34,596 bases of DNA from the NCBI GenBank assembly GCA_029880245.1, contig JAOUOR010000015.1, positions 1 to 34,596 of the forward strand, given 5' to 3'. The notes under the pieces were generated by a model. It was given only the letters and a program-made list of their open reading frames with translations, had not been told where the DNA came from and did not search any database. The position numbers were made by a program, and so were the translations under genes. This stretch comes from Alphaproteobacteria bacterium (GTDB taxonomy: Bacteria; Pseudomonadota; Alphaproteobacteria; Micavibrionales; Micavibrionaceae). This document shows, one piece after another, positions 16,532 to 33,701 of this stretch (its first letter is position 1; each line of letters starts with the position of its first letter).

Positions 16532-18415
16532 TTAAACTGTAATCAAATTACCAGAACTTTCCAGTGCCGCTGCATCTGTCAGACCAATCGGACCATAAAA
16601 TGTGGCAATCTGCACGAAATTATCCGCACCACCATCAACATCAACGCTTAGGTAAAATTCAGTGGGAGCAAAGTAAATATCATAGCTATTATCCGTAATT
16701 TGAACAAAGTCTGTGATAGCATCTGTTAGCGGGTCATAGCCAATCAATAGATCGGAAATATCCAACATATCGCCTTCAGATATATCAAAGTCCACGATAG
16801 TATCAATATCTGTGAAAGCTGAATCTGCCTCAAATACAAAGGTATCAGCCCCTCTTTCACCTAAGAGAAGATCTCTACCAGCCCCACCATAAAGAACGTC
16901 ATCATGGTCTCCTCCGAACAATACATCATCACCGTTGCCACCATAAAGAGTATCATTACCTCTGCCTCCCAATAAAAAATCATTACCATCTTCACCAAAG
17001 ATGTAATCATCACCATTTTTACCTGCTGCAGTATCATCGCCGGCGCCTAAGAACATTTTATCGTTAGTATTACCGTTGCTCTTAAAAAAATTGTCTCCAT
17101 CATCGCCAAGAGTGACATTCTGGGTTGGGTTAACCGTCACGAATACGGTTGCTGTATCCACGCCGCCTTGTCCGTCAAGCACAGTATATTCGAAGCTATC
17201 TTCACCGAAGAAGTCAACGCCGGGCGTGTAGGTAAATGTCCCATCCGCATTAAGCGTAACACTGTTACCGCCGGATGTTGCAAAAACACCGGCTTGAACA
17301 CTTAAAACATCTCCCTCAATGTCAAAATCTGCACCACTTCCGTTATCGGCAAGAACATTTCCTGATAATTGTACTATCTCATCTGTTGTGAAGAAGTCAT
17401 CCAACGCATCAGGCGCATCATTAACCGAATTGATTGTTATATCAATATTTGCCACTGACGTACCACCATTCCCATCACTAACCGTGTAGCTCAATGTTTC
17501 CGATCCATTAAAGTTCGCATTTGGTGTATAGGTAATGGTGTTATCGGCATTCACAACTGCTGTACCTTTCACAGCGCCACTAACAGCAGTAACAACAAGT
17601 GCATCGCCATCAGGATCAGAATCATTGCCAAGCACATTAATTATAACAGAAGAATCTTCATCAACTGTTGCTATGTCATCTTGAAGAACCGGATTCTCGT
17701 TACCTGGCATGCTAAATGGCGTAAACACACCATTTTCGTATGTTCCGTCAAAAAAATGCAGCCTTTCAACATTAAAGATTGTATCTATCCCGAAATAGCC
17801 ATAATTATCCCCAACAGTCAGGCTATCAGCATTCACAGTAATACTAGCATCGGAAAAATTCATCGCATATGCGGCAACATCGTCGCCATCACCACCATCA
17901 ATGGTGTTATTTCCTGAGTCGAACATAATAAATAAATCAGAACCCTCTTCTCCATACAAATAATCGTCGCCATCACCACCAACAAGTAAATCACCACCAA
18001 AGCCACCGTAAATCGTATCATTACCTGGACCACCGTGTAGAAGATCCCAACCATCATTACCATATATTATATCATCTCCGGCATTTGCGTATACAAGATC
18101 ATGGCCATTACCGGCATATATAGTCATATTTCCCAGTATATACGTTGTACTGGCAAGGTTTATAATATCATCGCCATCACCAGAAGCTATCTCATCAATA
18201 TCCTTTATAAGTTGGTTGCCATTACTATCCTCTATATTGAAGAAGTCATTATAAAGCGTCCCAAACAGCCTATCGTAATCGGTTATTGTTCCATAATACG
18301 GAGTGGTATCAATACCGTATATACCATCTACAAATGGCCCTGACCCGTCATAAGGATTATCAAAGAACTGAGTAATCGACTGAAACAGCACAGGTGTAAA
18401 ATAATAATCGGTCAT
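16532..18415 (-). CDS. RTX/cadherin-like secreted calcium-binding protein (type I secretion substrate)
   Basis: A 627-residue acidic protein without an N-terminal signal peptide. Residues about 75-180 contain GGxGxDxxx nonapeptides (for example GGPGNDTIYGGFGGDLL). Two tandem cadherin/Big_9-like beta domains follow at about 240-335 and 335-430 (NVLGNDSDPDGDALVV, then TFTYTPGVDFFGEDSF). A second nonapeptide block spans about 455-525. The last 95 residues (DTIVDF, then SVDVDGGADNFVQIATF to the end) are a type I secretion target region resembling the C-terminus of the epimerase at 20254. Calcium should fold it outside the cell. No catalytic domain is recognisable, so an adhesin or matrix protein binding the polysaccharide is the best guess. 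No ABC exporter is in the window. Confidence 0.88.
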   Translation of the reverse strand: MTDYYFTPVLFQSITQFFDNPYDGSGPFVDGIYGIDTTPYYGTITDYDRLFGTLYNDFFNIEDSNGNQLIKDIDEIASGDGDDIINLASTTYILGNMTIYAGNGHDLVYANAGDDIIYGNDGWDLLHGGPGNDTIYGGFGGDLLVGGDGDDYLYGEEGSDLFIMFDSGNNTIDGGDGDDVAAYAMNFSDASITVNADSLTVGDNYGYFGIDTIFNVERLHFFDGTYENGVFTPFSMPGNENPVLQDDIATVDEDSSVIINVLGNDSDPDGDALVVTAVSGAVKGTAVVNADNTITYTPNANFNGSETLSYTVSDGNGGTSVANIDITINSVNDAPDALDDFFTTDEIVQLSGNVLADNGSGADFDIEGDVLSVQAGVFATSGGNSVTLNADGTFTYTPGVDFFGEDSFEYTVLDGQGGVDTATVFVTVNPTQNVTLGDDGDNFFKSNGNTNDKMFLGAGDDTAAGKNGDDYIFGEDGNDFLLGGRGNDTLYGGNGDDVLFGGDHDDVLYGGAGRDLLLGERGADTFVFEADSAFTDIDTIVDFDISEGDMLDISDLLIGYDPLTDAITDFVQITDNSYDIYFAPTEFYLSVDVDGGADNFVQIATFYGPIGLTDAAALESSGNLITV

Positions 18416-20244: not shown

Positions 20245-20266
20245 GGCCAGCGATTAAACGCTGGCC
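20245..20266. repeat. Perfect inverted repeat spanning the epimerase stop codon
   Basis: GGCCAGCG (20245-20252) and CGCTGGCC (20259-20266) form an 8-base GC-rich stem with loop ATTAAA, and the loop contains the stop codon of the minus-strand epimerase gene. No strong T-run follows on either strand. It may therefore be a message-stabilising 3' hairpin or one part of a two-step terminator with the hairpin at 20053-20081. Confidence 0.6.
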
Positions 20267-22569
20267 GTTGTTGTAAGAGTTATCACACCATCTTCGTATA
20301 GTGTATTGGCATCGCCAAATCCGGTGACACCGACAAGGTTAGCCACTTCCACGAAGTTTTCTCCGTTTGCGGCGCCATCCGCATCAACAGAGACATAAGT
20401 GTTACCATCTCTTTCCGTAAGAAAAAGGAAGTCCGTAATGCTGTCCGTTACAGGATCAAAGCTTAAGACATCTGTAATTTCAAGCGTCTCGCCGTTATTA
20501 ATTCTAAAATCAAGAATGATATCAACACCGGACTGTGTTCCTTGTATGATAAACTTGTCGGAGCCGTCTCCACCCTTCATAACGTCAGCACCATCGCCGC
20601 CATAAAGGATATCATTACCGCTATTACCCCAAAGCTCATCTCCGCCGCCATGGCCAACCAGAATATCATCTCCGGCATAACCTTTGATGACATCAGCCGC
20701 ATTTCCGCCAACAAGAACATCTTGACCGGACGTGCCTTCCACATACATGGAAACCATGGACAAATTACTGTCCAGCTCTACGTTCTCAACACCTTTTTCC
20801 GAAGTAATGAAGTTTTCAATACTCAGATTTTCACCTCTGACACCTGATAAAGTCACGAGACTTACAGCCTGCGCTGAACCCAGATAGCCATCACTATCCA
20901 GCATAATTTCAACATCCGAACCTTGCTGAACAATCTGGATATAACCGGCATCAAAGGCCAGATCACGTGTAAAACCAAGAAATTGTGACGTAATATCTGT
21001 AATATCAATTGTTTCTGCATAATTGAAATCCACAACGACATCACCAGCCTCATTAAGATTGTTAAAGACAAAACTGTCTATACCGGAACTGCCCTTGAGT
21101 TTATCGTGGCCTTCCCCACCAATAAGGATGTCATTGCCGGCATTACCTTCCAAATAATCATCACCGGCTCCACCTATAAGAGTATCGTCACCGGCACGCC
21201 CTTTGAGGGTATCATCGCCAGCTCCGGCTTCCAGTGTATTATTATCCTTATCACCACTCAGGAACAAAGCTTCGATAACTTCCATATCCAACACAGGATC
21301 AGATGTTTCATCAATGACAGGTTCCTGCGTCGTTGTGTCCTGAACCGGAGCAGTCTGAGAATCCTGACTATCTGTCGTCGTAGCGACTTGATCGCCTTGC
21401 AAATAATTATCAGGCAAAGCCGCAGAAATAGATAGCTTGATGTATGTATACGCTGATGAGTCATCCAACAAAACAGACGAATCGTTAAGATTGACATTAT
21501 CTGCGCTTACACCATTACCGGCATAGACATTATTGACCGTCGTGTCGCCGATTTCATTAAAAGCAAAACGTCCCGATATAATGTCATTATTGATAATAAG
21601 GTTGTCATATGTATCACCGGGACCACCCAGACTTCCTGTATAAGGTTTCAGGCTGACCGCATAATTCTCCGAGCGCAGAATATTGCCGTCAATAACAATA
21701 TGATGAGCGCCTTCAAGTTGAATAGCATCCGCGCCATTGCCATAGACATTATTGCCAATAACTTGCGAATATTCAGATTGTTTCAGCAAAATTCCGTTCT
21801 TGCCATTGCCGTAAACTTCATTGTTTTCAATCAAGATATTGTAGTTGAGCATATCCTCCCAACCATCAATAGACTGACTTCCAGAGCCTTTCTGGACAAC
21901 AATACCCTGCTCGCCATTATCGTAGGAAATATTATCACGAAGAACAACGTCATGGCTGTGTGTCACGATGTTAAAACCGTGACGGTCATTGGCATAGGCA
22001 ATATTGTTCTCATAAACCGCATTAGATACGAAATCAGCAATAAAACCGTCCCAACTATTGTGGTGTGCAATACAATCACGAATAGTAAGATTCGTTGTCT
22101 GTTCGTGAGGATTAAACGCAATACGTGATACGTCATGTATCTCTACACGTTCAATCAGAATATTATTATCCGCTTCCGGACTACCGGGCAGAACGCCCGT
22201 TTGAATACCATCAATTTCAGCCGTAACATTTTCGCGGTTACCGTCAATCGTAAGGTCACGAATAATTACATTTTCCGTTACCTCATTCACAGGCGTTCTA
22301 ATGACCCCCGAAATCTTGGTTTCCTGTGTATCCGCAACTTTCAAAATAGTTTCACCAATACCGTCACCAAAAAGCTCCGTATTACTGTAGATACGAATAC
22401 CGCCTTCTGAAGCTTTATCAGTACTGGAAATTATATAGGTTCCGGCTGCCAGATAAACCTGGCCACCTCCGGCATCTCTTGCCGCATCTAATGCAGCCTG
22501 TATAGCCGCGGTATCATCAATATTGTCATTGGGGTTAGCACCGTAATCACGTGGATCATACACAGTCAT
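20254..22569 (-). CDS. AlgE-type extracellular mannuronan C5-epimerase homologue with altered active site
   Basis: A 771-residue secreted protein. Residues 1 to about 370 form a right-handed beta-helix (pectate-lyase-3 type) closely matching the A-module of Azotobacter AlgE enzymes, which turn mannuronate into guluronate in the polymer. There follow a Thr/Gln-rich linker (about 395-435), an RTX block (about 445-500) with a beta domain, a second RTX block (about 620-690), and a C-terminal type I secretion region. The substrate-site residues Asp179, Arg196 and His197 match AlgE4 positions 178, 195 and 196. However, the catalytic YGFDPHE motif reads IAFNPHE at 150-156: Tyr is Ile and Asp is Asn, with His155 kept. 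Activity is therefore doubtful and a binding role is possible. A strong AGGAG site precedes the start. Confidence 0.9.
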   Translation of the reverse strand: MTVYDPRDYGANPNDNIDDTAAIQAALDAARDAGGGQVYLAAGTYIISSTDKASEGGIRIYSNTELFGDGIGETILKVADTQETKISGVIRTPVNEVTENVIIRDLTIDGNRENVTAEIDGIQTGVLPGSPEADNNILIERVEIHDVSRIAFNPHEQTTNLTIRDCIAHHNSWDGFIADFVSNAVYENNIAYANDRHGFNIVTHSHDVVLRDNISYDNGEQGIVVQKGSGSQSIDGWEDMLNYNILIENNEVYGNGKNGILLKQSEYSQVIGNNVYGNGADAIQLEGAHHIVIDGNILRSENYAVSLKPYTGSLGGPGDTYDNLIINNDIISGRFAFNEIGDTTVNNVYAGNGVSADNVNLNDSSVLLDDSSAYTYIKLSISAALPDNYLQGDQVATTTDSQDSQTAPVQDTTTQEPVIDETSDPVLDMEVIEALFLSGDKDNNTLEAGAGDDTLKGRAGDDTLIGGAGDDYLEGNAGNDILIGGEGHDKLKGSSGIDSFVFNNLNEAGDVVVDFNYAETIDITDITSQFLGFTRDLAFDAGYIQIVQQGSDVEIMLDSDGYLGSAQAVSLVTLSGVRGENLSIENFITSEKGVENVELDSNLSMVSMYVEGTSGQDVLVGGNAADVIKGYAGDDILVGHGGGDELWGNSGNDILYGGDGADVMKGGDGSDKFIIQGTQSGVDIILDFRINNGETLEITDVLSFDPVTDSITDFLFLTERDGNTYVSVDADGAANGENFVEVANLVGVTGFGDANTLYEDGVITLTTTASV

Positions 22570-22863: not shown

Positions 22864-24387
22864 TTAGCTAAAGATCCAATAAGGAACTTCCATTACACCG
22901 GAGAAGAAACCGACCAGCGCAACAAACACTGTCATAGCTATGCCATAGACATAATGAGATGTAAATTTCACAAATTTTGTTTGCCAACCACTCATGCCAC
23001 GTTGCAATTTCGTTTTTTGGCGCGTCCATGATTGCTGGTCGAGTCGGAAAAACACGAAAGTCTTAATGACTGAGCCCCATATCTGGTTGTAATAGATCAA
23101 AAACGGATAATACCAACTGAGTACAGGACGCGAGGTCAGCAACATCAAAGTCATTATCCAGCGCGTAAACCCAATCCACGCAATATAAATAGGGAAGAAC
23201 GCAACAGAATGTTTAATGACAAGCATGATCGCAAAAACCGGACCGGCCAATGATGTCCACATGGAAATTCTCTGGTCAACCACACACCACCAAACAAACA
23301 GCCCTACTCTGTGTGGGCCCAATCTAACGGCACGACCATTTGTGCGCAGCATATTCCCAAACCAACGGAACATAAGTTGTGTCGAAGCCCGCAGGAAATA
23401 CGGTGATGGAGGATGCTCAACCGTCATGACAACAGTATCGGGAATATAAAGCATGTCATAGCCGCGCTTGATAACCCAATACCAGCTTGATTTATCATCC
23501 CCCGTCAAAAACTTGAATTTACCCAGACGCCAGTGATCAATCGAATCGTTTTGCACGTCATGTATAAAATCAGGATCAGTAATAATCTCGGCGCGAAACA
23601 TCGACATCCGTCCCGTAAGTGTCAAAACCTTTTTGGATAAAGCAACAGAGTTCATTAGAATCTGGCGCTGCGCGAATCGCAAATGGTGCCACTCACGGAT
23701 AATCTTGCTGCCCTTAACATGACATTCCTCATCCGTAGTCAAAGCCCCAAGATTCGGCATATATTTGAAGAACGGCGCACATTTGCGAATTAGCCCCTCG
23801 CCAAGAATCGAATCACCGTCAATCACAGCCACAACAGCATCAGGCGCAGGCATATCACGGGATATCGCGCGAAAACCCTGAGCAAGTCCATCGCGCTTTC
23901 CAGTACCGGGAATCCGGACAATCTGGAGCTTTACATGCCCGGGAGGATCAAGCATCTCGAAAATCTGCTTAAACATAATCTCATCGGACATTTCGACAAT
24001 AGAGGCAACAATCGTTGCAGGAACACCGCAATTAATCGCTTCTCGAATAGCGGCTGCATAAACTTCACCGGCGGTCTGTGCCTCGATCCGAAAGGCCGTG
24101 ACCAGCAAATACACATGAGACGGCATTAACTCATCAATTCGGGAATCAACCTCACGGCGCATTTTGGGAAATACATATCTATGATATATAACAGAACGCG
24201 TAAAATGAATTAGGCCCCAACTATAGCGCCAGACAGCCAACCCCCCGACAACGAGGATAAACTGTGTCGATGAAGGATCCAGCGCCACAGCAGGTAAAGT
24301 GGAGACAAGGACGATCAATAATACTGTATAAACAGTAAAACCGAACGTCCCTTTGGGAAGAAACGATTTCCGACCAAAGTCTTCCAT
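22864..24387 (-). CDS. alg8: Alg8, mannuronan synthase (membrane GT2)
   Basis: A 507-residue inner-membrane processive glycosyltransferase that polymerises GDP-mannuronic acid and moves the chain to the periplasm. Two N-terminal membrane helices precede the GT-A core. Visible motifs are VIDGDS (about 189-193), the TGDDKSSWYW acceptor-site region (about 295-304, the TED-like position) and Q-L-M-F-R-W (337-342), the QxxRW-type product-binding motif. Several C-terminal helices follow. The frame is open to 24486, but that extension overlaps algD. The ATG at 24387 has a clear GAAGGG ribosome binding site and gives a length close to the 494 residues of Pseudomonas Alg8. It lies 49 bases after algD. 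The partner Alg44 is not in the window. Confidence 0.94.
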   Translation of the reverse strand: MEDFGRKSFLPKGTFGFTVYTVLLIVLVSTLPAVALDPSSTQFILVVGGLAVWRYSWGLIHFTRSVIYHRYVFPKMRREVDSRIDELMPSHVYLLVTAFRIEAQTAGEVYAAAIREAINCGVPATIVASIVEMSDEIMFKQIFEMLDPPGHVKLQIVRIPGTGKRDGLAQGFRAISRDMPAPDAVVAVIDGDSILGEGLIRKCAPFFKYMPNLGALTTDEECHVKGSKIIREWHHLRFAQRQILMNSVALSKKVLTLTGRMSMFRAEIITDPDFIHDVQNDSIDHWRLGKFKFLTGDDKSSWYWVIKRGYDMLYIPDTVVMTVEHPPSPYFLRASTQLMFRWFGNMLRTNGRAVRLGPHRVGLFVWWCVVDQRISMWTSLAGPVFAIMLVIKHSVAFFPIYIAWIGFTRWIMTLMLLTSRPVLSWYYPFLIYYNQIWGSVIKTFVFFRLDQQSWTRQKTKLQRGMSGWQTKFVKFTSHYVYGIAMTVFVALVGFFSGVMEVPYWIFS

Positions 24388-24436
24388 CTTGAACCCTTCT
24401 TTCTCCGTATGAGTAATATGATGATGACCCGAATAA

Positions 24437-25759
24437 TTACCAGCAAATACCAGTATAAGATTCTCTCTTCTCGAGAGTTTCATCATTTAAGCGCACTAGA
24501 TCAATGACTGCAAGGTTATCATTAGCCTTATTATTAATAATTGTCGCAAAATCCTTATTACCGTTACCAATAACAACGAGATCACTTACAGCCAAAAGAT
24601 CCTCTGCATTCTCGGTCAGGCATTTTGAAATATGCGGTATACCTTCGCGGATATATTTCTGGTTAGCACCTTCCATATTAGCTGCCTCAAAAACACATGG
24701 GTCATAAACCGTAAGCTCGTAACCATCTTTAAGAAGGAGATCGGCCAAAGTCACAAGCGGACTTTCACGAAGGTCATCAGTACCGGCTTTGAAGCTCAAG
24801 CCCATCATACCGATTTTCTTCTTGCCGGACTTGTCGATCATAGACTTCGCGCGGCGCACCTGCTCGTCATTGGCTTCAAGAAGCGCATCAAAAATAGGTG
24901 TCTGGATATCCTTGTCCTTACCTTTTGCGCGAATTGCACGAACGTCCTTGGGCAAACATGACCCACCAAAAGCAAAACCGGGCTTCAGATAAGCTTTGGA
25001 GATATTCAGCTTTGTATCAAGGAAGAAAATATCCATGACTTTGTGACTGTCCACACCTAGTTCCTTCAGGATATTACCAAGCTCATTGGCAAAACCGACT
25101 TTCATGGCGTGCCATGCGTTATCCGCATATTTCACACCTTCGGAAACTTCAACGTCACAAACAACCAGATCAGCTTCAATGCCTTTATAAACATCTTTCA
25201 TCATCTGGGCTGTTTTCTCATCCTTGGCACCAATAACAATTTTTGGTGGATTGAAGTAATCGTAAATCGCTGTACTTTCGCGCAGGAATTCAGGGTTATT
25301 ACCAAAACCAAAGCCTTCACCGGCTTTTTTGCCAGAGGATTTCTCCAAAGCTGGAATAGCGATATCGCGGGCCGTACCTGGAACAACTGTTGAGCGAAGA
25401 ACCACAGAGTGAAACTCCTCTTTATCTTTAATTACTTCTCCGATTTGTGCACAAACCGCTTCAACATAGTCCAGTTTCAATGAACCATCTTCATTACTTG
25501 GCGTACCCACACAAATCAAGGATATATCGGAATTCATAACCGCTTCACGAACATCAAGAGTAGCTTTAAGCCTCCCGTTATCCGCATTGCGTTTGATCAT
25601 TTCAGGAAGGTCCGGCTCGATAATCGGCGAACGTCCTTCTGCAAGACATTTAACTTTAATAGGGTCCATATCAATGGCGATAACATCAAACCCGGATTCC
25701 GCCAGACAAGCACTGGCAACCGCGCCTACATAACCCAAACCGAATACACTAATTCTCAT
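24437..25759 (-). CDS. algD: AlgD, GDP-mannose 6-dehydrogenase
   Basis: A 440-residue cytoplasmic enzyme oxidising GDP-mannose to GDP-mannuronic acid with two NAD, the committed alginate step. The N-terminal Rossmann motif is MRISVFGLGYVGAV, followed by VGTPSNEDGSL and LRSTVVPGT. The catalytic Cys is in FGGSCLPKD and falls at residue 268, identical in number to Pseudomonas AlgD. The C-terminal UDP-binding-type domain has GLSFKAGTDDLRESP. A GTG codon lies immediately before, but the ATG at 25759 gives the family's usual start, with GGGAG upstream. Of all UDP/GDP-sugar dehydrogenases the AlgD identity is favoured because alg8 is the next gene. Confidence 0.95.
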   Translation of the reverse strand: MRISVFGLGYVGAVASACLAESGFDVIAIDMDPIKVKCLAEGRSPIIEPDLPEMIKRNADNGRLKATLDVREAVMNSDISLICVGTPSNEDGSLKLDYVEAVCAQIGEVIKDKEEFHSVVLRSTVVPGTARDIAIPALEKSSGKKAGEGFGFGNNPEFLRESTAIYDYFNPPKIVIGAKDEKTAQMMKDVYKGIEADLVVCDVEVSEGVKYADNAWHAMKVGFANELGNILKELGVDSHKVMDIFFLDTKLNISKAYLKPGFAFGGSCLPKDVRAIRAKGKDKDIQTPIFDALLEANDEQVRRAKSMIDKSGKKKIGMMGLSFKAGTDDLRESPLVTLADLLLKDGYELTVYDPCVFEAANMEGANQKYIREGIPHISKCLTENAEDLLAVSDLVVIGNGNKDFATIINNKANDNLAVIDLVRLNDETLEKRESYTGICW

Positions 25760-25939: not shown

Positions 25940-27064
25940 ATGTATTTTAATCTTAGAAAACGCTTATTTTGGGTCTTGCCGTGTCTCCTTCTTTTAATCT
26001 CTTGCGATTCAGAAGAAACACATCAAAAAACAAAGGGTCTACAACCCCCTTTTGACTTATCTGACATTCAAGATCGTGTAGAAAAACCTTTCACTGCAAA
26101 TTTCAAATGTAAGGAAACACCTGAGCCAATCCATGATCTCCATTTCAATTCCATGTACAGCAAGGCTTCCAAGAACTCTTCCGAGGTTGATCAGGAGGCC
26201 TACGCAAAATATCTAAGAGATACAGAAAATATCAAAATTCTTGAAAGCCAGCTTACAGTGATGGGTAACCGTTACCTGATGTCATGGCCGCATCGCATCG
26301 AAATAGCGCAGTGCATGCTCAACTGGATGGATGACTGGGCAATAGCAGATGGGTTTATGGGTGAAGCCAACCATATGGGGGAATTTGTCCGCAAATGGGC
26401 CTTGGCCTCCATCTCTTTGGCATTTTTACAAATTCGCAGCGAAGAAAATTTGGATGAAGATCAAAAAATACGTGTTAAAGACTGGATTCACCGCCTAACC
26501 GCTCAGGTCATAGCAGATTTCAGCCGCAAACCCGAGATTAACTCCCGTAATAACAATCACATGTATTGGGCAGTCTGGGGCGTAGCAAATGGCGCAGTTG
26601 TCAACAATGATCAGGAACAATTTAACTGGGCCATGAAGCAAGCTAAAAGAGCCATATCTCATATTCAGATGGATGGTACATTGCCTACAGAATTAATTCG
26701 AGGCAAAAAGGCCTATAATTATCATCATTATGCTGCCATACCTTTGTTTTATCTTGCACAAATCGCGCAAGCTAATGGTATCAATCTTTATAAGGAAAAC
26801 GACCATGGACTACAGAGATTGGCCAAACGCCTTTTGCTTAATATCGACGACCAGAGCTATTTCCAAACCCTTACAGGTAAAAAACAAGATTTAACGCGCA
26901 CCATTACTTACTCTAATCTTGTCTGGCTTGTGCCTTACTATAAGGAATATAAAGATCCCGATGCATTAAAACTGCTCAGACAATTTCACCCCGTACGCCA
27001 CAGCCGGGTTGGCGGAAATGCAGTTTTTCTCTATGGCAAGACAAAATCGTATGAAAATGACTAG
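25940..27064 (+). CDS. algL: AlgL, periplasmic alginate lyase (PL5), predicted lipoprotein
   Basis: A 374-residue alpha/alpha-toroid lyase of family PL5 that cleaves mannuronate-rich chains by beta-elimination. It clears misrouted alginate from the periplasm. The catalytic set is present: Asn206-His207 in RNNNHMYWAVWG, Arg254 in ELIRGKKA and Tyr261 in YNYHHY. The spacing (His to Arg 47, Arg to Tyr 7) equals that of the Sphingomonas A1-III lyase. The N-terminus LLLLISC looks like a lipobox with Cys22, so the enzyme is probably membrane-tethered, unlike the soluble Pseudomonas protein. It is the only plus-strand gene of the alginate cluster, divergent from algD and meeting a small unknown gene tail to tail. 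Confidence 0.93.
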   Translation: MYFNLRKRLFWVLPCLLLLISCDSEETHQKTKGLQPPFDLSDIQDRVEKPFTANFKCKETPEPIHDLHFNSMYSKASKNSSEVDQEAYAKYLRDTENIKILESQLTVMGNRYLMSWPHRIEIAQCMLNWMDDWAIADGFMGEANHMGEFVRKWALASISLAFLQIRSEENLDEDQKIRVKDWIHRLTAQVIADFSRKPEINSRNNNHMYWAVWGVANGAVVNNDQEQFNWAMKQAKRAISHIQMDGTLPTELIRGKKAYNYHHYAAIPLFYLAQIAQANGINLYKENDHGLQRLAKRLLLNIDDQSYFQTLTGKKQDLTRTITYSNLVWLVPYYKEYKDPDALKLLRQFHPVRHSRVGGNAVFLYGKTKSYEND

Positions 27065-27070
27065 AGAAAA

Positions 27071-27544
27071 TTAGCTAATATCTGGTCTATCTATACAAGC
27101 ATACCCTTTATCTTTAACTTCTTCACATCCATCAAAGATTTTATTTTTAGATACGACTTTATAACTTCCGCCTTCTTTCCTTACATAAAAATCCATATTT
27201 AATTTAGATTTAAGCTCATTTGCAAGATCTTGGGATGCCTTTTTATCTGTTGAAGATGAAACCTGAATATGAATGGGCGCATGCTCATTATTTGTTCGTT
27301 CTATCTTAACAGGTTTTTGAGAGCCCGCCGCAATCAAATTCGTCGTGGCTTGCGCACTATTATCAATTCCCTCTTTGATATCTTCACTAATTTTAAGGTG
27401 ATTTTCTACTGTAGTCGCAGTAGCAACCATTCCTATGATAGCGAATCCAGCTCTCCCTTTTTCATAGAGCGATTTACCAACCGAACTAGCTCCATCTACT
27501 AATTTATTCAAAACATTTTTTAATTTATCCAAAACATTTTTCAT
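27071..27544 (-). CDS. Hypothetical 157-residue protein, weakly SPOR-like C-terminus
   Basis: Not recognised as a known family. Residues 1-30 are amphipathic and Lys-rich (repeated KNVLDKLK-type heptads), then comes a weak hydrophobic stretch near 32-46 (AGFAIIGMVATATTV). The last 70 residues read IHIQVSSSTDKKASQDLANE with LNMDFYVRKEGGSYKVVSKN and two Cys near the end. The strand-helix-strand pattern is reminiscent of SPOR peptidoglycan-binding domains, but the match is weak. Its stop is 6 bases from the algL stop, on the opposite strand, with 116 bases to the AlgX-like gene upstream. Codon use looks like that of its neighbours. Confidence 0.6.
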   Translation of the reverse strand: MKNVLDKLKNVLNKLVDGASSVGKSLYEKGRAGFAIIGMVATATTVENHLKISEDIKEGIDNSAQATTNLIAAGSQKPVKIERTNNEHAPIHIQVSSSTDKKASQDLANELKSKLNMDFYVRKEGGSYKVVSKNKIFDGCEEVKDKGYACIDRPDIS

Positions 27545-27660: not shown

Positions 27661-29310
27661 TTATTCCCTTGAAAGAACATCTTCGGGCAAGCTACACAGC
27701 TTAGCCGTTACATTTACGCCTTCAAAATTCTGCTTGCTGTTATTAACGGCAACCGAGTACAGAAAAGATTCATCGTCTTCCCCCGTCAAAAGAAAAAACA
27801 AGTGATCCTCTTTCCCTTCATGCGGAGATTCAAACTTAACCAGTTTTGTCTTACGATCCGTCGTTTTGATAGAAATAGAAATATCCTTCTTAAGCGGACG
27901 GTCAAATTTCAATTCCAGATAGACATGATCAGTTCTGATTTTTTGCTTTTCGATCTCACTGACAACTCTAATGCGTTTTCCTGTGATCGGTTCAGGCCCA
28001 AAAGTAAGAATAGGCTCCTCACAGGGCCCAAGAGCCGCAGGGATTGCCCGCCTTAATGCCATTTCCATCCCGGAACCACCAAGATTATAATAGCTAGGCA
28101 ATTCCCAGACTAAAAAAGCCGGCTTTTGCTTTTTATAAGTATCCGATTCCAAATAGCCAATAACGGAATCGTCCATTCCCCCGCCTGTCAGTGCTACATT
28201 ATACACATCAAGAGACAAGTCTTCCTTCAAAAAACCATCAAAATTGGAATTAAACTCCCCTCTTTTGCTATTACTGGTCCCAATAAGCACAATAGGAGGG
28301 TTAGACTCCCCGAACAAATCCCCTACTTCTTTGGTGGTTTCATAGACATAATCACGCTCAGGATAAGGTACAAAACCACAGATATCACGGATAACCTTAC
28401 CGTAAAGCCCGTCATATACTTTTCCTCCCTTCCTGACAGTCGTAAATTTTTCTTTGGGCAAATCTTTCCATTGATCCGTTTCTTTTATAATAGCTGAAAC
28501 AGATTGAGCCATAGCTCTCGCACCTTCTGTACTCCAATGATGATCCGCCCAATTGAAATATTTATACCCATCTTCAGAATAAGATATCGATGTCAGATTA
28601 ACCCCTTTATTTTGAAAAGCTTCGAGAAGCCCATAAAACTGGCTCTTTAGCTCATCGACATCAAAATCTTCAATGTGTTTATTCCCTGATATTATTTTAT
28701 CTGAAGCCAATACGGAACGCGGCGGCAAATAGGCAATCACCAATTCCGTCCCCTTTAAACGCAATGATTCTGCAAATATGCGATATAATTCAGCCTTATT
28801 TTCACGGTATTTATAAACCGGATAAAAATCCTGCTGTGTACGAAAAATCCAATGGTCTTTGCCCGGCACCATAAATTTCTGGTTTTCGTTCTTTTTGTAG
28901 GATTCTTCCTCCAATAAAGCCATGCAACTTTGTGAATCACCATACGGCCCGTTCAGATCAAATATATCAATCTCATCTTTACTTGGTTTAATTGGCTCGG
29001 GCTCCCATGAAGGCTCCGCAATATAGCCCTGTTTCTTTTGCGCTTTTATCCGTTCCCTTTGAAGACGTTTCTCTTCAGCCTTCTTTTCACGTTGTATTTG
29101 TTCCTTAGATTTTACCTGTACTTTAGGTTTCGAGGCCTTAACCTGCTTAGTTTTATCCTTACGCACTGTTTTTTCTGTAGACTCAACGTCACCCCTGAGC
29201 TTTGATAGATCAATGATGCCACGATCCAGTGCAACATATATTCCAACGCTGCAAACCAGCATTATGATTATGAACAAAAGAACTGTTCTCATAAGGTTCC
29301 TCTTAATCAA
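27661..29310 (-). CDS. AlgX/AlgJ-family SGNH acetyltransferase, membrane-anchored paralogue
   Basis: A 549-residue protein with an N-terminal membrane helix (VLLFIIIMLVCSVGIYVAL, residues 10-28) and a long charged Lys/Gln-rich segment (45-110, likely coiled coil). A periplasmic AlgX-type SGNH domain follows, with Asp256-His258 in ADHHWS and nucleophile Ser346 in IGTSNSKRG. A C-terminal beta domain from about 430 carries ITIDISQ-like strands and ends near a conserved AKLC motif. The same C-terminal arrangement is seen in the protein at 32097-33701, which suggests the two arose by duplication. The expected role is transfer of acetyl groups to mannuronate residues at the export complex. The uncleaved anchor and coiled coil are unlike Pseudomonas AlgX, which is a soluble periplasmic protein. 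Confidence 0.85.
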   Translation of the reverse strand: MIKRNLMRTVLLFIIIMLVCSVGIYVALDRGIIDLSKLRGDVESTEKTVRKDKTKQVKASKPKVQVKSKEQIQREKKAEEKRLQRERIKAQKKQGYIAEPSWEPEPIKPSKDEIDIFDLNGPYGDSQSCMALLEEESYKKNENQKFMVPGKDHWIFRTQQDFYPVYKYRENKAELYRIFAESLRLKGTELVIAYLPPRSVLASDKIISGNKHIEDFDVDELKSQFYGLLEAFQNKGVNLTSISYSEDGYKYFNWADHHWSTEGARAMAQSVSAIIKETDQWKDLPKEKFTTVRKGGKVYDGLYGKVIRDICGFVPYPERDYVYETTKEVGDLFGESNPPIVLIGTSNSKRGEFNSNFDGFLKEDLSLDVYNVALTGGGMDDSVIGYLESDTYKKQKPAFLVWELPSYYNLGGSGMEMALRRAIPAALGPCEEPILTFGPEPITGKRIRVVSEIEKQKIRTDHVYLELKFDRPLKKDISISIKTTDRKTKLVKFESPHEGKEDHLFFLLTGEDDESFLYSVAVNNSKQNFEGVNVTAKLCSLPEDVLSRE

Positions 29311-29354: not shown

Positions 29355-30434
29355 CTACTTTTCTTTTTGTGATTGATCCACAACCACATAACGCTCCGGA
29401 ATTTCCCAGATCACAATCGAAGGCATAGAATTCTTCCATGCATTACCACCTAAATAGGTTTTCATCACAGCAAATGGCCCTAGCCCCTCATCCGCCGCAT
29501 TAAAAACATCAACCTGTAGCCTGCCTTTCAAAAACTCTGCAAAATGCCATTTGGAATTGGCACTATAACTTGTTCCCACAAGAGTCACGGGCGGAACATC
29601 ATCCCCGAATAAATCAAGAGATTCTGAAACCTCAGCCCCGTCTTCCGCGTGCACTTCTTCTGTTTTATAAACAGATAGATGATCCGGCCTAATTACCTCA
29701 TCGCTGACCCCCGGCAAATAACGAAGTAAATCACCCTCATGCTCTATATTTTGAGTATGTTCAGTAACGTAAGACTTTTTTACAATTTCACCTGAAAGAT
29801 TAAAATCTTTTGCCACAAGTTCCGCAGCAAAACCTGCGCCTTCCGGCGTCCAGTGCGTATCACTTTTAAGAAAAAGCGTATCTTTATTCTTATGGCTTTT
29901 GATGCCATCCAGCAAACCGGTTACCGTAATCTCATTGCTCTTCATAAAAGAAAGGACATCAGAATAAACATCCTTCCGGCACTGCGTGATTTTGTTGCGG
30001 CCAAGATGCTCTTCATAAACACGAGCCTTTGCTGGCACAAGCACAACATGAAGTTTTGCACCTCTGCCTTCAATCATATTTTTAACTTGAGCAACATAAT
30101 CCAAATTCTCGGCCATATGTTGTAAGGAAGACGGAAGACAGGAAAACTCCTCATCCGTGAACAACCACCCATTTTCACCAACAACAACACCTTTACGCCC
30201 CTGTCCAAACAGAAGATACTGGATTTTCCCCCATAAATTCCGGCTAGGCTCAAAAACCGGCAATGATTCATTTAAGGATTTTTCAAAATCAGGTGTCCAC
30301 GTACCAACCATAATAGATTCACGTGTTGGGTTTTCGACATTTTCCCAACCTTTAGGCATATAGAAAACTGCCATCCCAAAAGATAATGCCAGAAATACTA
30401 TAAACAAAAATCCACTCAGCTTAATATTCTGCAT
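29355..30434 (-). CDS. algJ: AlgJ, periplasmic alginate O-acetylation protein
   Basis: A 359-residue protein with an N-terminal signal anchor (residues 7-26) and an SGNH-type domain. The catalytic pair is Asp192-His194 in KSDTHWTPEG and the nucleophile is Ser289 in VGTSYSAN. These positions nearly coincide with those of Pseudomonas AlgJ (190, 192, 288). ENGWLFTDEEF near residue 87 is another family element. AlgJ works with AlgI and AlgF to acetylate nascent alginate in the periplasm. It lies between algG (7 bases upstream) and the anchored AlgX-like gene (44 bases downstream), all on one strand. AlgI itself is encoded about 10 kb away in the window, not adjacent as in Pseudomonas. Confidence 0.9.
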   Translation of the reverse strand: MQNIKLSGFLFIVFLALSFGMAVFYMPKGWENVENPTRESIMVGTWTPDFEKSLNESLPVFEPSRNLWGKIQYLLFGQGRKGVVVGENGWLFTDEEFSCLPSSLQHMAENLDYVAQVKNMIEGRGAKLHVVLVPAKARVYEEHLGRNKITQCRKDVYSDVLSFMKSNEITVTGLLDGIKSHKNKDTLFLKSDTHWTPEGAGFAAELVAKDFNLSGEIVKKSYVTEHTQNIEHEGDLLRYLPGVSDEVIRPDHLSVYKTEEVHAEDGAEVSESLDLFGDDVPPVTLVGTSYSANSKWHFAEFLKGRLQVDVFNAADEGLGPFAVMKTYLGGNAWKNSMPSIVIWEIPERYVVVDQSQKEK

Positions 30435-30441
30435 TCTTAAC

Positions 30442-32121
30442 TCAATTATATTCTTCTTCGTCTATATTAGACTCTTCAGCACCGTGATGATCCTTCTTCA
30501 CAGGCGGTTTTGCGTCTGGAAACCATGAGCTTTGTATTTTGATCATCACATCTTCTTTTTCCAGATTCTCCAATAACATGTCCTTATCATAATCGAAATA
30601 ATTCGGAAGTATATGTGTTCCAGCCCAAAGCTTAATATTAGACAATCCCAAAAGTTCTGCATTTGTGATTTTAAAGGCTGCAGCTCCACTTGTTCTGATC
30701 TTGGCACCTCGAACAGTTACACCAGCCTTTTGAGTATAGGGATCAAAATCAAGATCACGGGTTTCATGCCCATCAATATTAGCGGTATAAACCTCGACTG
30801 AAGTTCCGCCATTGCCGTATATCTCGTCATTATACATGTGAATATCCCAGCTATTCCGGATACGAAGACCGTTCTTTTTGTTGTAACGAAAAACATTACC
30901 CCAAGTGATATTATCCTCGCTTTCAAAAAACGTCAGGCCATCTTGCTCGTTATATTCTGCTATATTATTCGCAATCACATTATTGACACTCGTCCGGTCA
31001 ATCATAAAGCCAGAGCCTTTATTATGGTGGGAGTGGTTATCAAAGATCCACCCGTCATTGACCTCACGCGATATAATAATGCCGTGCTTTTTCTTTGTGC
31101 CATAAGCCTCGTTTTTGGCAATAATCAAACGCCTTGAACGGTCATGCGGGTCAATACCATATACGATATTGTCAATATAAGTATTACCTATGATTGCAAC
31201 ATCCTCGGCTTCATATGAATAAAACCCGTAATAGAAATCATAAAATCTGTTATTCAGCACCCAGCCCGTTGCCTCAGGCACATCAGGATCAACTTTCTGA
31301 CATGGCGTACAAGCCGAATAGCTAAGCCCGTAAGACTTCCCTCCGGAATATCCCATAGAATAGAAATCACTCTCAACTAAATAAAGACCGCCGCCGCCCC
31401 ACGTTGCAATAAAGGGACGATATTTATATTTCTCGGTTTTATAATGCTCGAGGTCAAACCATGCTTGATCATTCTTTTCTTCATCCCAACCATAAACTTT
31501 AGTCCGCAGAATATATAGATCGCCCGCATTCACCAAAAATGCGTTACTCTGCGCTGAAATCTTCAAAGCATTCACATCAATACCGGATATAGTAAGAGAT
31601 GCCCCCCTTAAAACCAAAAGAGGCATACGCAAAATATAATCATCGCCTTGTTTTTCTATGATTTTGCTTTCTGGATCATTTGTGTGAACAGCCTTATAAA
31701 GTGTTTTCCAATCATAATGCCCTGATTTTATAACAAGAGCACGAGGGCTAATTTGGCGCTGAATCAGACGAAGTTTTTGCGGGGCTTTCTTTTCAAGGAA
31801 TTTTTTGAACTCTGGATAATATTTCATTTTATCAATATAAACACGTCCAGTCTGAACCTTGGGGACACGCTTTAGTAGATTTTCATATGTAAACCCACTA
31901 ATATCCGGTAGATACGGTTTTTCAATAGGCTCATTCCATTTTACAATCTCAACTTGTAACCTTTCCTTGCTAAGAACCTCACCACCCGGCAAATAATTTC
32001 TTAAATTCCAGTACAAAACGGCCAAACACAGCACCCCGACAACGACGATCTTCACGCCATTCTCAGCCATAATACCCTGCTTTTTAGCGGGTTGGTCTAT
32101 ATACCGTCTTTCCTTTTGCAT
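30442..32121 (-). CDS. algG: AlgG, periplasmic mannuronan C5-epimerase
   Basis: A 559-residue protein with an N-terminal membrane anchor (VKIVVVGVLCLAVLYWNL, about 23-40) and a C-terminal right-handed beta-helix. The AlgG hallmark DPHD is present in YGIDPHDRS with His326 the presumed catalytic base. Helix rungs such as IIISREVNDGWIFDNHSHHN and NIAEYNEQDGLTFFESEDN follow. It converts mannuronate to guluronate during passage through the periplasm and is part of the export complex. The start at 32121 overlaps the upstream AlgX-like gene by 25 bases. An alternative ATG at 32070 (MAENGVKI) with GCAGGG before it is also plausible. The C-terminus has an acidic tail (EESNIDEEEY) absent from the Pseudomonas protein as I recall it. 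Confidence 0.94.
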   Translation of the reverse strand: MQKERRYIDQPAKKQGIMAENGVKIVVVGVLCLAVLYWNLRNYLPGGEVLSKERLQVEIVKWNEPIEKPYLPDISGFTYENLLKRVPKVQTGRVYIDKMKYYPEFKKFLEKKAPQKLRLIQRQISPRALVIKSGHYDWKTLYKAVHTNDPESKIIEKQGDDYILRMPLLVLRGASLTISGIDVNALKISAQSNAFLVNAGDLYILRTKVYGWDEEKNDQAWFDLEHYKTEKYKYRPFIATWGGGGLYLVESDFYSMGYSGGKSYGLSYSACTPCQKVDPDVPEATGWVLNNRFYDFYYGFYSYEAEDVAIIGNTYIDNIVYGIDPHDRSRRLIIAKNEAYGTKKKHGIIISREVNDGWIFDNHSHHNKGSGFMIDRTSVNNVIANNIAEYNEQDGLTFFESEDNITWGNVFRYNKKNGLRIRNSWDIHMYNDEIYGNGGTSVEVYTANIDGHETRDLDFDPYTQKAGVTVRGAKIRTSGAAAFKITNAELLGLSNIKLWAGTHILPNYFDYDKDMLLENLEKEDVMIKIQSSWFPDAKPPVKKDHHGAEESNIDEEEYN

Positions 32122-33701
32122 AGATTTGCCTTGATTGTTCCCATTGGCTTATTTGTTTCAATTTGCAGCATACTTAAATCACTGGTTTCCTTCTGATCAA
32201 ATTCCCAGTAATAATGCCCGTTATTCTCTGCTCGGCGAGAACGCGTCACGCTTATTTCTTCGGCGTTTCCATTAGAAAATAAAGTCCCTATATTTATCAT
32301 GCGATCCTCAGGATTCTTGACCTCGATTGAAAGATAACTCTCACTAGCCTTAATATGTTTAGATTCCAGATCATCAAAAACTAAAACTTCGTGCATAACA
32401 CCTTCTTTAAGCGCCGCATTTCTCTTCTGGGCACGTCTTAACTCACTGCCCTGTTCTTCAGTAAACTGTGTTACGTCAATCAACTTATCCTGAATACGCT
32501 CTAAATCCTGATCGATTATATGCTGGGATATATCAATCGTAATTTCCTTTGAAGCCAAAATATCATCGCCTCCACATGGTCCCTCCAGCGCTGCAATCAT
32601 TTGCCTGAAACCAATAGGATCATCAAAATTATGGTGAGAAAGAAACTCCCACAACAAAATCTTTGGCGGATGTTCATGAAATTCATCCGTAGCATAGAAA
32701 ACCACACCGGAACCGGAAAACGCCCCGGCTGACATTGCGCGGTTACGGATATCAGCTTTCAGTTCTTGTTTTAATGAACCCACAAAATTGAAATCTTCCT
32801 CATGCGCCGTGTTACTCGTTCCGATAATCGCAATATCCGGATATGTAACATCTCCAAACAAGCTGTCTTCCGAAATTTCTTCGCTCAAAGATGTCGTCGC
32901 CCACATAGGCCTGCGTTCGGGCGGAATAGTCACGCCACAAACCGCCTCTACAAACTCGTCAAACTCGCCTTTTTCACTCTCTAGCCACCATGTGATCTCA
33001 ACAGAAAATTCCTCCTTCTTAATGCCCTCATATTTAGGATTTTTCTTAATCATTTTAGAGACTTGCTTGGCCGTCCATTGAGCCCCCTCACGGCGCCAGT
33101 GTGGATCACCTTTGAAGAAATACACAAGATCATCAGGAATATCAGATAAATCAGGCGCATTAATACCAGCATCATTAAACCGTTTGATCAAAGCCTTATA
33201 ATTTGCACGAGCCACTTCAGGATCATACCCTTCCGGCATTGTTTCGGGATCTATGTATTTGCTCATAAGCATAGCTCTTGACGGCTGGAGCACAATGTAA
33301 AGATCAACACCTTTAGCCTTCAATCCGGCATTTACACGCTTCATGTAATTAAAAATCTCATCGGGCATAGAAAAATCAGTACGAAAATCTGCAGAACGGA
33401 AAAGCCAACCATCCTTACCGGCCCGAATATGTTTAAGAATTTTGCGCTCGCCGCGATATTGCAGATCATCCCATAACGTCTCTTGACACTCTGTCAGATC
33501 AGGATAATCCATTGGCGTAACCTCATTGGTTACCCCCTCCTCGTTTTTAAATCCCGGACGGGCCAATTGTTGGGCTTTTGTTTCATCTGCCTGCGCAATG
33601 TTTTCACCTGTCACAGAAAAGACAAAAATCAACAGCACAGCAAAGACGCGCCATAGCGCGCCTTTAATTGTTTTTATATTATTTTGCTTTCTATCAGTCA
33701 T
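32097..33701 (-). CDS. algX: AlgX-like alginate acetyltransferase
   Basis: A 534-residue secreted protein with a signal peptide (hydrophobic WRVFAVLLIFVFSVTG, possible cleavage after ENIAQA). The SGNH domain has AGKDGWLFRSADF, Asp199-His201 in GDPHWRREG and Ser296 in IIGTSNTAH. A C-terminal beta-rich domain (about 390-534), which in AlgX is a carbohydrate-binding module, ends with KANLCKRK. AlgX is the terminal acetyltransferase in the periplasmic export complex. Here the gene sits next to algG, as in Pseudomonas, and abuts the algF stop directly (start codon at 33701, algF stop at 33702). A second AlgX-like gene lies at 27661. Which one is the functional equivalent is uncertain, but gene order and the cleavable signal favour this one. 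Confidence 0.87.
   Translation of the reverse strand: MTDRKQNNIKTIKGALWRVFAVLLIFVFSVTGENIAQADETKAQQLARPGFKNEEGVTNEVTPMDYPDLTECQETLWDDLQYRGERKILKHIRAGKDGWLFRSADFRTDFSMPDEIFNYMKRVNAGLKAKGVDLYIVLQPSRAMLMSKYIDPETMPEGYDPEVARANYKALIKRFNDAGINAPDLSDIPDDLVYFFKGDPHWRREGAQWTAKQVSKMIKKNPKYEGIKKEEFSVEITWWLESEKGEFDEFVEAVCGVTIPPERRPMWATTSLSEEISEDSLFGDVTYPDIAIIGTSNTAHEEDFNFVGSLKQELKADIRNRAMSAGAFSGSGVVFYATDEFHEHPPKILLWEFLSHHNFDDPIGFRQMIAALEGPCGGDDILASKEITIDISQHIIDQDLERIQDKLIDVTQFTEEQGSELRRAQKRNAALKEGVMHEVLVFDDLESKHIKASESYLSIEVKNPEDRMINIGTLFSNGNAEEISVTRSRRAENNGHYYWEFDQKETSDLSMLQIETNKPMGTIKANLCKRKDGI

Follow-up and report, generated by a model that had tools for sequence, protein, structure and literature searches.

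What does an AlgE-type protein do once it has lost the tyrosine proposed to act as the catalytic acid of alginate epimerases? The question is raised by a gene in a stretch of 34,596 nucleotides, hereafter the window, from an alphaproteobacterial genome of the Micavibrionaceae (contig JAOUOR010000015.1). Which group returns the proton in these enzymes, the Tyr or a water held by it, is a matter on which the proposals for AlgE7 and AlgG differ. The motif YG(F/I)DPH(D/E) is described as common to all alginate epimerases, with His154 proposed as the base and Tyr149 as the acid (PMC8824271), while for AlgG water was put forward as the proton donor, the Tyr merely holding it (PMC4444821). The evidence on the AlgE mechanism consists of a handful of site-directed mutants with next to no activity: AlgE7 Y149A, Y149F and Y149H are reported to retain about 0.5% residual activity (PMC8824271), and Y149F has been used for inactivating the A-modules of AlgE1 (PMC12269086). 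A natural subfamily that does without this Tyr, and in which further changes have become fixed nearby, represents a ready experiment. If active, it would show how one site serves epimerase, lyase and exchange alike; if inactive, it would be an epimerase turned into an alginate-binding protein.

Gene, fold and active-site motif

The gene (Table 1) encodes an A-module followed by four RTX stretches as delineated by Pfam, the R-modules standing behind the A-module as in AlgE-type epimerases. Within the second RTX module lies a type I secretion C-terminal target domain (TIGR03661, 39.7 bits with a cut-off of 17.6, residues 683-751), a match that supports type I secretion as a prediction from sequence, and the protein is probably secreted. 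The type I exporter model TIGR01846 gave 29 matches in the same genome, 0 of them above the cut-off. Direct repeats in the RTX part amount to a single 30-nt pair of 73%.

Table 1. Features of the tyrosine-less AlgE-type gene and of the surrounding alginate genes (window coordinates)
Feature	Position	Strand	Basis and remarks
Tyr-less AlgE-type gene	20254..22569	minus	Intact ORF, 771 aa; A-module, then two RTX R-like modules
A-module, about residues 1-390, right-handed beta-helix	21400..22569	minus	AlphaFold2 model and structural alignment
First RTX R-like module, about residues 437-588	20806..21261	minus	Match to AlgE6 R-module 2ML3 (query 451-588); Pfam
Second RTX R-like module, about residues 605-763	20281..20757	minus	Match to AlgE6 R-module 2ML2 (query 620-721)
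RIAFNPHE motif, residues 149-156 (AlgE4 148-155: GYGFDPHE)	22102..22125	minus	Sequence, phmmer, clade alignment
Ile150 (ATT), replacing AlgE4 Tyr149, proposed catalytic acid	22120..22122	minus	Sequence; role as proposed in PMC8824271
Asn153 (AAT), replacing AlgE4 Asp152	22111..22113	minus	Sequence, clade alignment
His155, equivalent to AlgE4 His154, proposed catalytic base; kept 8/8	22105..22107	minus	Role as proposed in PMC8824271
Arg149, counterpart of AlgE7 Arg148, a lyase determinant; 8/8	22123..22125	minus	Alignment; PMC8824271
Trp173, clade-fixed	22051..22053	minus	Alignment; canonical rows (35): Leu 25, Lys 10
His204, clade-fixed	21958..21960	minus	Alignment; canonical rows (35): Ser 34, Asp 1
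Clade-specific insertion, residues 234-240 (IDGWEDM)	21850..21870	minus	Gap in 35/35 canonical rows; low-confidence stretch of the model
AlgG-like epimerase, YGIDPHD intact	30442..32121	minus	NF038177, E 6.2e-112, 374.9 bits, below the 700-bit cut-off
AlgL-type alginate lyase	25940..27064	plus	PF05426, 127.8 bits (cut-off 22.2); NCBIfam lyase models below cut-offs
Alg8-like GT2 glycosyltransferase	22864..24486	minus	PF13641; no NCBIfam match; name Alg8 inferred from context
Three different AlgX/AlgJ-type SGNH acetyltransferase-like proteins	27661-29310, 29355-30434, 32097-33701		Pfam; same cluster

Compared with the PDB by phmmer, the A-module found its best sequence matches in 8XFQ (E 2.7e-82) and 8JA4 (E 3e-82; titled alginate epimerase/lyase), followed by AlgE6 (5LW3, E 5.3e-78) and AlgE4 (2PYG, E 7.6e-76), and all four carry YGFDPHE at the place of the motif. 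An AlphaFold2 model of residues 1-420, computed from an alignment of 8 sequences, reached a mean pLDDT of 88, falling below 50 at 232-235 and 392-420. By VIA-align the modelled A-module superposed on AlgE6 with Z 53.8 (rmsd 1.5) and on AlgE4 (2PYG) with Z 53.4 (rmsd 1.3 over 360 residues); scores were lower for 8JA4 (Z 47.7), AlgG (4NK6, Z 32.1) and 7O7A (Z 30.5), the last representing a general fold match alone to the PL6 alginate lyases with their Lys base and Arg acid. As modelled, the fold of the A-module is the AlgE fold.

The closest known counterparts include AlgE4 and AlgE6, the secreted mannuronan C5-epimerases of Azotobacter vinelandii, with which the protein shares the fold (Z 53-54), the A-R module order, 39-41% identity of the A-module in the structural alignment, and counterparts of His154, Glu155, Asp178, Arg195, His196, Asp119 and Asp173. 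It differs from both in Ile and Asn for Tyr149 and Asp152, in Trp173, His204 and Arg149, and in the insertion at 234-240. Residues 147-158 read VSRIAFNPHEQT. The phmmer alignment bears out the constant +1 offset to AlgE4 given by the initial annotation, with Asp179, Arg196 and His197 conserved, and its reading of YGFDPHE as IAFNPHE agrees with both the ORF and the alignment with AlgE4: Tyr149 has become Ile150 and Asp152 has become Asn153 (its AAT codon being read at 22111-22113), whereas His155 and Glu156 stay. The step from Tyr to Ile takes two codon base changes. Position 151 has changed as well, from Gly to Ala, an exchange also seen in canonical modules (RYAFDPHE). The initial annotation places Tyr149 and Asp152 in the catalytic site, and PMC8824271 and PMC7385640 back it in this. 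The two residues are not equal in weight: in AlgE7, D152N is reported to retain more activity than D152E (PMC8824271).

Occurrence and ancestry of the variant

The same change was sought in related genomes, as had been suggested, and was found in every close relative. Among 95 genomes searched, the window's genome being one of them, all eight A-modules of at least 64% identity (64-100%, own included) have IAFNPHE in place of YG(F/I)DPH(D/E), and they come from seven genomes of one family; besides the own genome, the carriers are Micavibrio sp. UBA1672, which shares the genus of the window (hence 'Micavibrio-type'), and five further MAGs that bear the title Alphaproteobacteria bacterium (Micavibrio is filed by NCBI under Bdellovibrionota). 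Within the clade the codons vary silently (Ile by ATT in six and ATC in two, Asn by AAT and AAC in four each), the ORFs are intact in 8/8 (730-846 aa), and for the 7 of 28 pairs whose dS could be computed dN/dS falls at 0.059-0.167, dS being saturated in the other 21. Since the same residues recur in all eight modules, with silent codon variation and in a single clade, RIAFNPHE is not an error but a genuine variant of the AlgE active site, and a conserved one. Gene decay or faulty assembly, at which the departure of two catalytic residues from the family motif might hint, is extremely improbable in view of these intact frames, recovered from seven separate genomes with dN/dS well below 1.

For comparison, a canonical set was assembled from three modules of G090 (another family, 40-42% identity) and from 9 of the 148 genomes of the G566 family. 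It comprises 35 rows and 32 distinct A-modules, three rows being second views via a neighbouring locus, and 7 of its 10 Arg148-type rows are distinct; the distant L102 and the AlgY-like L143 were left out, and tblastn pieces with query end minus start below 285 were dropped. All 32 distinct modules have Tyr at 150 together with Asp at 153, and YGFDPH is found even in L102 (27-31%).

A scan of genome contigs for RIAFNPHE and ILIE[RN]VEI, which detects those exact peptides only, returned nine loci, namely seven known clade members and the distant L044 and L045 (30%), for which six-frame listings of both records held no motif-like site among the PHx sites. No further close member was met in 142 genomes of the order, a plasmid collection gave no match at E 1e-10, and none of 7 pattern matches in viral contigs encodes a relative. 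Evenly drawn samples yielded the own gene, three canonical genes and L102 with YGFDPH in the phylum (398 genomes, E 1e-15), solely the canonical G566 in its class (274 genomes, E 1e-20) and, besides the own gene, 19 genomes with weak partial matches in the own class (385 genomes, best E 2e-8).

Monophyly of the Tyr-less modules was recovered at 100/100, the stem measuring 1.13 changes per column, and stayed at 100/100 with columns 146-158, 171-174 and 203-205 masked and L102 left out, in trees that contained duplicate rows (second views of genes). The best-tree sister, the canonical Gly148-type modules of G090, is not firm (92/82, or 81/83 with the motif columns masked). No earlier report of a Tyr-less AlgE was found in the literature searched, which is only part of the whole, and no mention of alginate in Micavibrio was met in PMC12016536.

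Constraint at the site and possible functions

Thirteen active-site positions are available from PMC8824271, at 118, 120, 123, 149, 150, 153, 155, 156, 173, 174, 179, 196 and 197 in window numbering (AlgE4 +1). Eleven of these are invariant in the clade, whereas among all 331 positions 129 are (hypergeometric p 0.0008); the thirteen take in the motif itself, and Ile150 and Asn153 thus belong to the eleven. His155, Glu156, Asp179, Arg196 and His197 are kept, and Asp120, Asp174 and Arg196, reported round Tyr149, are invariant in 8/8. A total of 23 clade-fixed residues is absent from the canonical rows, including Ile150, Asn153, Ser172, Trp173 and His204; with three at the 13 positions versus 23 over all 331, the enrichment is weak (p 0.053). 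The remaining variation is found at position 118 (Glu 3, Asp 4, Met 1) and at 123 (Gln 2, Met 6), while 173 is Trp in all eight.

Against this background, the protein probably holds on to alginate or has some other action on it. The three readings offered by the initial annotation, an alginate-binding pseudo-enzyme, a lyase-like variant and an epimerase with another mechanism, all keep some probability. Ordinary Tyr-dependent epimerisation is very unlikely, because the Tyr149 mutants of AlgE7 are left with about 0.5% activity and Y149F inactivates. The data are most simply accounted for by binding in an intact groove, and the likeliest single reading, to which we give somewhat less than an even chance, is a secreted, calcium-binding, alginate-binding pseudo-epimerase descended from an AlgE-type epimerase. 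The beta-helix groove would still hold the alginate chain via His155, Asp179, Arg196 and His197, joined by the new Trp173, Arg149 and His204, and the RTX modules would bind calcium plus further chain; lacking the Tyr acid, M would not be converted to G at a useful rate. Such a protein could serve to cross-link the alginate matrix, to anchor it or to give it shape, with epimerisation carried out by AlgG. Congruent with this are the loss of both residues in 8/8 clade modules versus 0/32 distinct canonical ones, the published effects of Tyr149 mutations, the AlgE4 fold predicted to be kept, and the conserved active-site positions under low dN/dS. On the other hand, the proposed base His155 is as invariant as Asp120, Asp174 and Arg196, which mere binding need not demand, several near-site changes were fixed jointly, in a manner suggestive of retuned chemistry or specificity, and the Asp to Asn change alone is not the worst at 152 in AlgE7 (PMC8824271).

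A further point against pure binding is provided by AlgY, like the present protein an AlgE-type protein with active-site losses, and described as being without activity on mannuronan (PMC4444821). According to the same source, six AlgE genes are located near 5.2 Mb, AlgE5 lies at about 3.4 Mb, and AlgE1 and AlgE3 have two A-modules each. The ten matching modules of G927 fall at 5.19-5.21 Mb (eight), 3.45 Mb (one) and 5.00 Mb (one), and by elimination against these positions the 5.00 Mb module would be AlgY. In window numbering, the AlgY-like modules L143 and L152, the latter at 5.00 Mb, have lost Asp120, Glu156, Asp174 and Arg196 and kept Tyr150, Asp153, His155 and Asp179. The Tyr-less clade displays the complementary pattern, retaining in 8/8 precisely the four residues that the AlgY-like modules lost and losing the Tyr and Asp that they kept.

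There is an even chance that the Tyr-less subfamily is still catalytic, with His as the base assisted by Arg149, water or the new loop, this being the union of a lyase and an epimerase reading, which together are as likely as the binding reading. If so, it would be the first enzyme of the alginate epimerase fold to lack YG(F/I)DPH(D/E), as far as the present searches show.

A Tyr-independent alginate lyase is possible, if on the unlikely side. His155 would take the C5 proton of M and also protonate the leaving oxygen (O4 syn), Arg149 and Trp173 would position the residue, and with no acid on the other face epimerisation would be blocked, elimination being the sole productive exit. In its favour, a single Tyr is reported to serve as base and acid in the M-specific lyases studied so far, PL6 lyases using Lys and Arg (PMC4444821). 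The invariant active-site network is consistent with this proposal, as are the features shared with the AlgE7-type bifunctional epimerase/lyases, namely Arg149, fixed in 8/8, and an acidic residue at 118 in 7/8, where the AlgE7 type has Glu117 (PMC8824271). The full AlgE7-type set of Glu117, Tyr122, Arg148 and Lys172, markers that 8XFQ and 8JA4 carry, is however not seen: in place of Tyr122 the clade has Gln or Met (at 123) and in place of Lys172 it has Trp (at 173), Tyr149 and Asp152 being lost as well, and AlgE7 itself depends on Tyr149. Moreover, inheritance of Arg149 together with the AlgE7 type is neither shown nor rejected by the trees (p-AU 0.254 for a grouping of the clade with the Arg148-type modules).

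That the protein is still a C5-epimerase appears doubtful. Water or another residue would then be the proton donor, held by Asp120, Asp174, Arg149 or the loop 234-240. The proposal of a water donor in AlgG (PMC4444821) lends itself to this idea, the residue network around the place of the Tyr does not vary, the insertion is fixed along with Trp173, His204 and Ser172, and the Asp152 replacement is of the milder kind in AlgE7 (PMC8824271). Conversely, all three AlgE7 Tyr149 mutants are near dead, and AlgE1 modules are inactivated by Y149F. His204 was considered as a new acid and set aside; from the DSSP strand register of the model, loosely read, it would lie two rungs from His155, making it an unlikely donor.

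Alginate genes around the locus

The cluster around the gene (Table 1) further includes AlgF, as identified by Pfam, a nucleotide-sugar dehydrogenase above the cut-off of TIGR03026, and an MBOAT protein matched by the DltB model alone, below its cut-off, which we call AlgI from context. This gene content by itself suggests alginate production in the Micavibrio-type lineage. The presence of an AlgL-type lyase in the cluster counts against a lyase function for the Tyr-less protein. In 6/8 Tyr-less loci, the window included, relatives of these genes are found at distances of up to about 16 kb. None is near L031, on a 14.4 kb contig, where the four neighbours examined include ManC and a carbohydrate esterase, nor near L033, the second Tyr-less copy in G037, with no alginate gene among the four neighbours examined.

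AlgG, the periplasmic epimerase, resembles the Tyr-less protein in its beta-helix fold (4NK6) and in the catalytic His of xPHx, but keeps YxxDPHD, and the AlgG of the window is without an RTX match in Pfam. The initial annotation had noted DPHD in this AlgG, and YGIDPHD is indeed read there. YxxDPHD is kept in 14/14 AlgG copies, and epimerisation therefore need not depend on the Tyr-less protein. In line with the pseudo-epimerase reading, all seven genomes with a Tyr-less gene have AlgG, as compared with 13 of 104 genomes family-wide, these seven included (one-sided Fisher 8e-8, a test that ignores kinship).

Several minor observations were made along the way. An RTX and cadherin-like repeat protein is encoded at 16532-18415 beside the AlgI-like gene, with similar RTX genes in the L027, L029 and L030 stretches, and a 157-aa ORF without Pfam or NCBIfam match lies at 27071-27544, flanked by the genes of the AlgL-type lyase and of an AlgX-type protein. 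The C-terminus of AlgL (26980-27064) reads HSRVGGN, a peptide occurring in dispersed repeats; a repeat was suspected at this 3' end, but the 85 bases gave a self match only in the own genome (at E 0.001). The neighbours of L033 include a pentapeptide-repeat protein and valyl-tRNA synthetase. Finally, the AlgG open frames of G017, G037 and G050 (L111, L112 and L113) span 962-1036 aa, compared with 568 in the window, and are possibly fusions.
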